Assembly: GCF_029589435.1 (NCBI RefSeq)
Contig: NZ_JARRAG010000002.1
Coordinates: forward strand, 2,728,001 to 2,792,000
From: Paludisphaera mucosa
Lineage (GTDB): Bacteria; Planctomycetota; Planctomycetia; Isosphaerales; Isosphaeraceae
Direction of reading: 5' to 3'
DNA length: 64,000 bases
Of the stretch, positions 7,906 through 8,152 are shown one piece after another. Position 1 is the first letter of the stretch; every line of letters begins with the position of its first letter. Position numbers and translations under genes: made by a program. The notes under the pieces were generated by a model. The model had not been told where the DNA came from. It saw only the letters and a program-made list of their open reading frames with translations, and did no database searches.

Positions 7906-8106
7906 TCAACCCAGCGACAAGAAACCCCTTACCAAAGCCAGTATGCCTCCGCGGATCGTTTCAGGCAGTTCTGGCCAGGCTGCCACCAAGGCGGCCAAGT
8001 CGGCATCCATCTCTGTACGACATATGTCGGTGGGCAAATAGTGGGCAACAGGCTCGGATGCAAGTCGCAAACCCTTGCAGGTCCTGTCGTTGCTCGGATC
8101 TGTCAC
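7906..8106 (-). CDS. Small ORF, possible remnant at the island end
   Basis: A 66-codon frame whose GTG start lies inside the tRNA-Lys fragment, so the annotated start is unlikely to be native. The convincing part is the last 35 residues, from MDADLAALVAAWPELPETIR onward, a short helical segment. It resembles tails seen in planctomycete recombinase-linked proteins, but this is recollection and not a verified match. Being next to an attachment scar, it could be the leftover end of an integrase or a tiny accessory gene. It may also be chance coding in GC-rich DNA. No ribosome binding site is evident. Confidence 0.3.
   Translation of the reverse strand: MTDPSNDRTCKGLRLASEPVAHYLPTDICRTEMDADLAALVAAWPELPETIRGGILALVRGFLSLG
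8018..8029. promoter_or_regulatory. Perfect 12-bp palindrome near the island end
   Basis: CGACATATGTCG reads the same on both strands. It lies about 75 bases from the tRNA-Lys fragment, inside the small doubtful ORF. It could be a binding site for a dimeric regulator or recombination accessory protein, or chance. Confidence 0.25.
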
Positions 8107-8152
8107 CTGACTCTTAATCAGCGGGTTGTAGGTTCGAGTCCTACGGGGGGCA
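8104..8152 (+). other. 3' half of a tRNA-Lys gene: attachment-site scar
   Basis: The sequence holds the anticodon arm CTGACTCTTAATCAG (loop with CTT, lysine), the variable region, a full T arm (GTAGG TTCGAGT CCTAC) and the 3' acceptor strand GGGGGGC plus A. No 5' acceptor strand and no D arm with GCTCAGTTGG-type sequence precede it; upstream DNA is unrelated. A tRNA broken exactly at the anticodon arm is the classic product of integration by a tyrosine recombinase, where the 3' part of the tRNA is duplicated at the far end of the element. It therefore marks the right boundary of the island carrying the restriction operon. The intact tRNA-Lys copy should lie beyond the left window edge. Confidence 0.85.

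Follow-up and report, generated by a model that had tools for sequence, protein, structure and literature searches.

Genomic islands of the Islander type are recognised by an intact tRNA gene and a same-strand 3′ fragment of it, with the integrase gene lying between the two, and one class of them has its crossover centred on the anticodon (PMC4383910). In such islands, the 3′ half of the intact tRNA is island-borne and the displaced copy is the host original (PMC4383910). Most of their integrases end before the attachment site, attP, but Islander names Mx8 and SSV as cases in which the gene crosses it. In the Myxococcus phage Mx8, attP is part of the tyrosine integrase gene, and upon integration 112 C-terminal residues of the enzyme give way to 13 others (PMC4701971), the catalytic part staying whole (PMC6070905); the altered integrase is, according to one report, less active (PMC4701971) and, according to another, changed in specificity (PMC6070905). 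The SSV-type archaeal, or suicidal, integrases also have attP in the integrase gene, where it is often tRNA-derived, and integration splits the gene; integrases that disrupt their own gene have been called exclusively archaeal (PMC8371274). In streptococcal ICEs inserted in rumA, the att site is in a serine integrase gene and the C-terminus differs between the integrated and the excised state (PMC4701971). The arrangement itself is therefore already known from Mx8, and the archaeal SSV-type integrases resemble it differently. For Planctomycetes, no description of attP inside an integrase gene was found in the open-access literature searched.

The window analysed here, a stretch of 64,000 nucleotides from Paludisphaera mucosa (G000:C2:2728001-2792000), contains the far end of an island whose integrase gene, too, very probably has attP inside it.

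The displaced tRNA-Lys fragment and its island

The window carries part of a tRNA-Lys(CTT) gene, namely its anticodon arm, T arm and 3′ acceptor strand, without the 5′ half (Table 1), as a sequence-only reading of this DNA had claimed. The fragment scored 21 bits with the Rfam tRNA model, below the 29-bit cut-off, which half a gene would be expected to miss, and ARAGORN called no tRNA gene at this position. Its 34-nt core has exactly one further copy in the genome, at 2719483, and since this sole other copy sits inside an intact tRNA-Lys(CTT) gene, the fragment is not a chance match. The intact gene (G000:C2:2719452-2719524; 70.6 bits with the tRNA model) is on the same strand as the fragment, 16.6 kb to its left, and is adjoined by the gene of a tyrosine integrase that points toward the tRNA. 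Both had been anticipated by the sequence-only reading, which proposed a search to the left of the window for an integrase and for a tRNA-Lys(CTT) identical in its 3′ half.

The two sites share a 101-bp direct repeat, of which the genome holds these two copies only, the window copy (Table 1) and its counterpart at G000:C2:2719476-2719576. The repeat reaches 52 bp beyond the end of the tRNA and takes in a hairpin and a T run, evidently the terminator of tRNA-Lys. Identity is lost at window 8107, where the anticodon stem begins on its 5′ side, and farther upstream the copies are unrelated. The right-hand copies of other tRNA-Lys islands all diverge at one and the same point in the anticodon stem, and on a basis that includes this agreement the crossover probably lies in the anticodon stem-loop, at window 8107-8121. 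By the usual tRNA-island logic, the window copy would be the host's own original 3′ half, moved to the far end of the island, and the 3′ half of the present intact tRNA-Lys would be island-supplied. The 52 bp past the tRNA (window 8153-8204; G000:C2:2719525-2719576) hardly differ between the two island ends of one genome but are only about 80% identical between species, in G003 likewise, as if the copies had been homogenised within each host.

The 16,628 bp between the repeat copies have a G+C content of 64.7%, and the 20-kb flanks have 68.8% and 70.0%. Read from the intact tRNA, the integrase gene is followed by ORFs that match no family and by a small terminase-like ORF, then by genes for a DnaG-like primase, a DUF3987 protein and a UvrD-type helicase, and finally by the type III Mod and Res genes; the integrase, terminase-like ORF, primase and DUF3987 genes, together with the tRNA-Lys itself, are in the portion left of the window. 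The similarity of the small terminase-like ORF is weak, with an E value of 0.0046 (below the cut-off) in one search and of 4.5e-6 in another, and family searches of the island found no capsid families. An ARAGORN call of a tRNA-Pro inside the DUF3987 gene (L036:7170-7244) was absent from the Infernal genome scan and is probably spurious. From position 1 to 7695 of the window, helicase, Mod and Res follow each other on one strand with gaps of a few bases, which suggests a three-gene restriction operon; by eye, the N-terminal part of the helicase is toxin-like (RelE or ParE), without a supporting Pfam match. A restriction operon to the left of the fragment and metabolic genes to its right are as the sequence-only reading described them. 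Judged by these features, the locus is to all appearances a 16.6-kb island inserted into tRNA-Lys(CTT) by a tyrosine recombinase.

Table 1 Features of the island in the window
Feature	Window position	Strand	Evidence or remark
In-window part of the 16,628-bp island	1..8204	.	Remainder at G000:C2:2719476-2728000
UvrD-type helicase, cargo, 692 aa in total, extends left of the window	1..1808	-	PF00580, PF13361; phrog_1967
Type III DNA methyltransferase (Mod), cargo	1813..4593	-	PF01555; PADLOC MTase_III 1444 bits
Type III restriction subunit (Res), cargo	4597..7695	-	PF04851, PF19778
Stranded integrase C-terminal segment (tail), about 67 codons plus TGA stop at 7906-7908	7906..8108	-	
Presumed arm-type integrase sites, tandem TGGGCAAAT-AG-TGGGCAA	8031..8048	+	Partner pair at G000:C2:2719667-2719684
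Right repeat copy, attR-type end: tRNA-Lys 3′ half and terminator	8104..8204	+	98/101 identical, E 7.7e-42
Displaced tRNA-Lys(CTT) 3′ fragment (anticodon arm, T arm, 3′ acceptor strand)	8107..8152	+	

The integrase frame through the attachment site

The island integrase is a tyrosine integrase (PF00589, 6.2e-13), and the catalytic columns R, K, H, R, H and Y were invariant in the integrase alignment. As integrated, its frame on the minus strand crosses the repeat and stops in the 5′ half of the tRNA, giving 487 codons that end in ...APRRTRTYNPLIKSQLLYQLS*, so that the protein has a host-encoded ending (...LIKSQLLYQLS). In the predicted head-to-tail join of the island, the frame instead goes from the core into window 8108-7909 for 60 more codons, past the second arm site, and yields 547 aa. 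The catalytic residues remain together in the integrated gene and only the ending differs. The added segment, the tail, carries the conserved motif DLAxVVxAWPxLPEAIRAGILAMV and shares the reading frame of the integrase body only in the head-to-tail join, and the continuation of the frame into it argues that attP lies within the integrase gene. The frame through the tRNA-Lys core is partly forced, because the other two antisense frames contain stops.

The sequence-only reading had assigned the whole of 7906-8152 to the tRNA fragment. This holds for the part listed in Table 1, but 7906-8106 is non-tRNA, encodes the integrase tail and holds the presumed arm sites. The attachment-site duplication at an island edge that it ascribed to a tyrosine recombinase is supported, but the coding of the integrase C-terminus beside the fragment had been missed.

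The 8.2-Mb genome has two occurrences of a tandem motif, TGGGCAAATNNTGGGCAA, one per island end, and the pattern GGCAAATNNNSGGCAA was found in exactly two places, again one per island end, compared to none for its reversed control. The motif pair in the window lies 73 bp left of the core and its partner 191 bp right of the start of the left repeat. In relatives, several GGCAAATNNNSGGCAA copies adjoin integrases of the same group. By analogy with lambda, the tandem motifs are presumed to be arm-type integrase binding sites, and both fall inside the joined integrase coding frame, in the linker.

As in Mx8, the frame runs across attP in the unintegrated form (in the predicted join here, and in a fused ORF in contig G192:C66), and host-encoded residues replace the C-terminus on integration, leaving the catalytic part intact (487 versus 547 aa). 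Unlike Mx8, the planctomycete group has many tRNA targets and islands that are not known phage, and its frame includes presumed arm sites as well as a tail motif that is conserved. When Mx8 Int (AF396866) was searched with the planctomycete tail profile, the best stretch reached 0.5 bits and lay outside the C-terminus, and Mx8 Int barely matches the planctomycete integrase profile. The planctomycete integrases would thus work like that of Mx8, with kinship of the tails unsupported by the profile search. In SSV-type integrases, splitting parts the N-terminus from the catalytic portion and inactivates the gene, whereas in the planctomycete gene the catalytic domain stays with the gene start and the tail alone is exchanged. 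The streptococcal rumA elements differ in having a serine integrase and a protein-gene target. The intact tRNA with its same-strand 3′ fragment, the integrase between them and the anticodon crossover are as in Islander-type islands.

Given this layout, we propose that a tyrosine recombinase inserts the 16.6-kb island at the anticodon region of tRNA-Lys(CTT), and that the island would give the tRNA a new 3′ half and terminator at one end and leave the old host 3′ half at the other, in the window. In the circular form, the gene of about 547 aa would consist of the N-terminal part and catalytic domain, a linker with both presumed arm sites and the tRNA core, and the conserved tail. Integration would sever it at the core, the catalytic body staying at the tRNA end with its host-encoded ending (487 aa) and the tail-coding segment being stranded at the far end of the island. 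The long enzyme would then be made from the free circle and the short enzyme from the chromosome; by analogy with Mx8, the long form may favour integration and the short form may stabilise the integrated state, and the tail might, at a guess, contact a neighbouring subunit. In this scheme the island ends, the continuity of the frame, the conservation of the tail and the fused ORFs are read from sequence, and excision, circularity and the functional switch are inferred. We regard it as highly probable that the island in tRNA-Lys has attP in its own integrase gene and that integration exchanges the C-terminus of the enzyme. More tentatively, and with the balance tipped slightly against it, a widespread clade of planctomycete integrases may use the loss and regain of the tail as a built-in direction switch, and by the same layout any tRNA with a 3′ half readable in frame could become a new target.

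The tail in related genomes

The 48-residue end of the extension, searched alone, had clear relatives in 28 of 45 family genomes, and a 31-column tail profile found 114 of 198 class genomes, more than half of those sampled, and 76 of 109 class genera; the group was sampled mainly in one family. Thirty-one of the 63 family tails have an integrase of the same group within 75 kb on the contig, and all 31 share its strand, with none on the opposite one. Twenty-nine of them are at the far end, 5′ of the integrase, which is the expected spot for a stranded tail; two follow an integrase, or a fragment of one, at a distance of about 270 nt. A second tail in G016:C31, 270 nt after the integrase and out of frame, is read as a composite junction.

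Mismatches between tails were distributed over the three codon positions as 0.35/0.23/0.58, the median dN was 0.37 and the median dS 1.16, and dN was lower than dS in 99% of 272 usable pairs. By these measures the tail is under purifying selection, and since it is coding only when joined, this indicates that it matters in the joined form. This bears on the possibility that the tail is indeed swapped, yet to no regulatory effect, attP within the gene being a compact module and both forms of the enzyme equally active, a view that agrees with the catalytic domain being complete in both. Selection on a segment that codes only in the joined form speaks against it, as do the reports that the altered Mx8 enzyme is less active (PMC4701971) or changed in specificity (PMC6070905), and we consider it unlikely, without being negligible.

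Whether the tail belongs to the integrase at all was addressed with 26 islands, taken with both ends and the longest direct repeat. One of these, G025_a, has a repeat that is not tRNA-like and was dropped, its integrase and tail probably coming from different islands. In all 25 islands with a tRNA-derived repeat, the longest direct repeat joins integrase and tail in frame. With G025_a included, 26 of 26 join in frame, for a binomial p of 4e-13 if independent and of 7e-8 counting only 15 as independent, some of the islands sharing tRNA targets and ancestry. The joined ORF is unbroken to the tail stop in 23 of the 25; in the exceptions, G008_b and G035_a, the integrase gene is already broken ahead of the core. 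The targets called by ARAGORN, ten or so, include Lys, Phe, Met, Leu, His, Ser, Glu, Cys and Arg tRNAs, and both orientations occur: the intact tRNA is at the integrase end in most islands and at the tail end in others.

If this were an ordinary tRNA island, the integrase would read through the tRNA for want of stops and the tail would be an unrelated small gene. Integrase genes commonly end near or in their target tRNA, and just one antisense frame is open in tRNA-Lys, as such a view would have it. It is at odds, however, with a tail that is in the integrase frame in every one of the 25 islands, over many tRNA targets and in both orientations, and with the want of a shared methionine start, several tails having no methionine between core and motif. 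It is also at odds with colinear integrases that end directly in the tail motif with no tRNA sequence between, in this genome (C2:3190300-3192300) and in G030:C6, and which show the tail to be a native integrase C-terminus. The fused ORF in G192 tells against it as well: contig C66 (13,229 bp) has a single frame of 656 codons that runs from the integrase domain through a linker containing a tRNA-Asp 3′ half to the tail, and the sole other copy of its 53-bp core, an exact one, is in an intact tRNA-Asp on another contig. This contig is probably the unintegrated element; comparison of its ends found no overlap that would show it to be circular. G031 serves as a negative control: the integrase at this tRNA-Lys is a different one that ends short of the core, and a search of that island for the tail found none. 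An ordinary island with an unrelated small gene beside it is accordingly very improbable.

The window island is like the phage-inducible chromosomal islands, which are satellites, in its size, integrase, primase or helicase, small terminase-like ORF and defence cargo, the terminase similarity being weak in the window island and stronger in G192:C66. The latter (L221) carries a type III Mod and Res 30-44% identical to those of the window, a primase, and a small terminase matching PF03592 (9.5e-18), which suggests satellite-like elements with restriction cargo. No close relative was found among the plasmids, phages and viral contigs searched for free elements. An alignment query of the free-element collections returned five distant integrases, without the tail, and a scan of genome contigs returned one Planctomycetales locus, in which the integrase likewise passes a tRNA-Arg repeat, with the tail beyond the stretch examined.

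In the open-access literature searched, attP inside a tyrosine integrase gene is treated as archaeal or as a rarity of phage Mx8; here it appears to be the norm for a large group of islands in one planctomycete family, at many tRNAs. Joined, split and colinear forms are all present in sequence data, so that control of the direction of integration by the C-terminus is directly testable. The far end of islands whose tRNA fragment is missed by gene finders can be recognised by its paired arm sites and orphan tail peptide, and the annotated integrases of such islands carry artificial, host-encoded ends.

The tRNA-Lys site in relatives

The gene to the left of tRNA-Lys is kept in nearly all family members. 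Displaced tRNA-Lys 3′ halves were found 3 to 36 kb away in G005, G004, G013, G031 and G016, and G009 has two in a row. Given the integrase, the 101-bp repeat, the arm-site pair at both ends and this recurrence of 3′-half fragments beside tRNA-Lys, an origin of the fragment without integration, as an old pseudogene or by tandem duplication of the tRNA, is hardly conceivable. The tRNA-Lys island of G005 has a tail at its right end, and no integrase of the same group was found inside it.

The sequence-only reading had also called for a comparison with relatives that lack the island, which was obtained in part: tRNA-Lys in the congener G001 has no adjacent integrase, but its flanks are not colinear with this genome, owing to an inversion with one breakpoint near the 3′ end of tRNA-Lys. 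The inverted segment, which includes tRNA-Lys and is about 4 kb long, is G000:C2:2715484-2719599, compared to G001:C1:5930376-5934550 and G002:C1:389394-392954. Because of the inversion, the metabolic cluster (window 8438-16190) lies away from tRNA-Lys in G002 and does not exist as such in G001, and a reading of these genomes as a colinear empty site, with the metabolic genes from window 8438 on, was rejected.

Several class genomes (L198-L206) have frames of 320-670 codons that end in the tail motif without an integrase match, and these may be other recombinases or other proteins sharing the C-terminus. In G003 (L093:13453-14226), a frame of 267 codons leads from a neighbouring element's partial integrase across the repeat and into the tail of the first island, which is what tandem islands would give where they meet.
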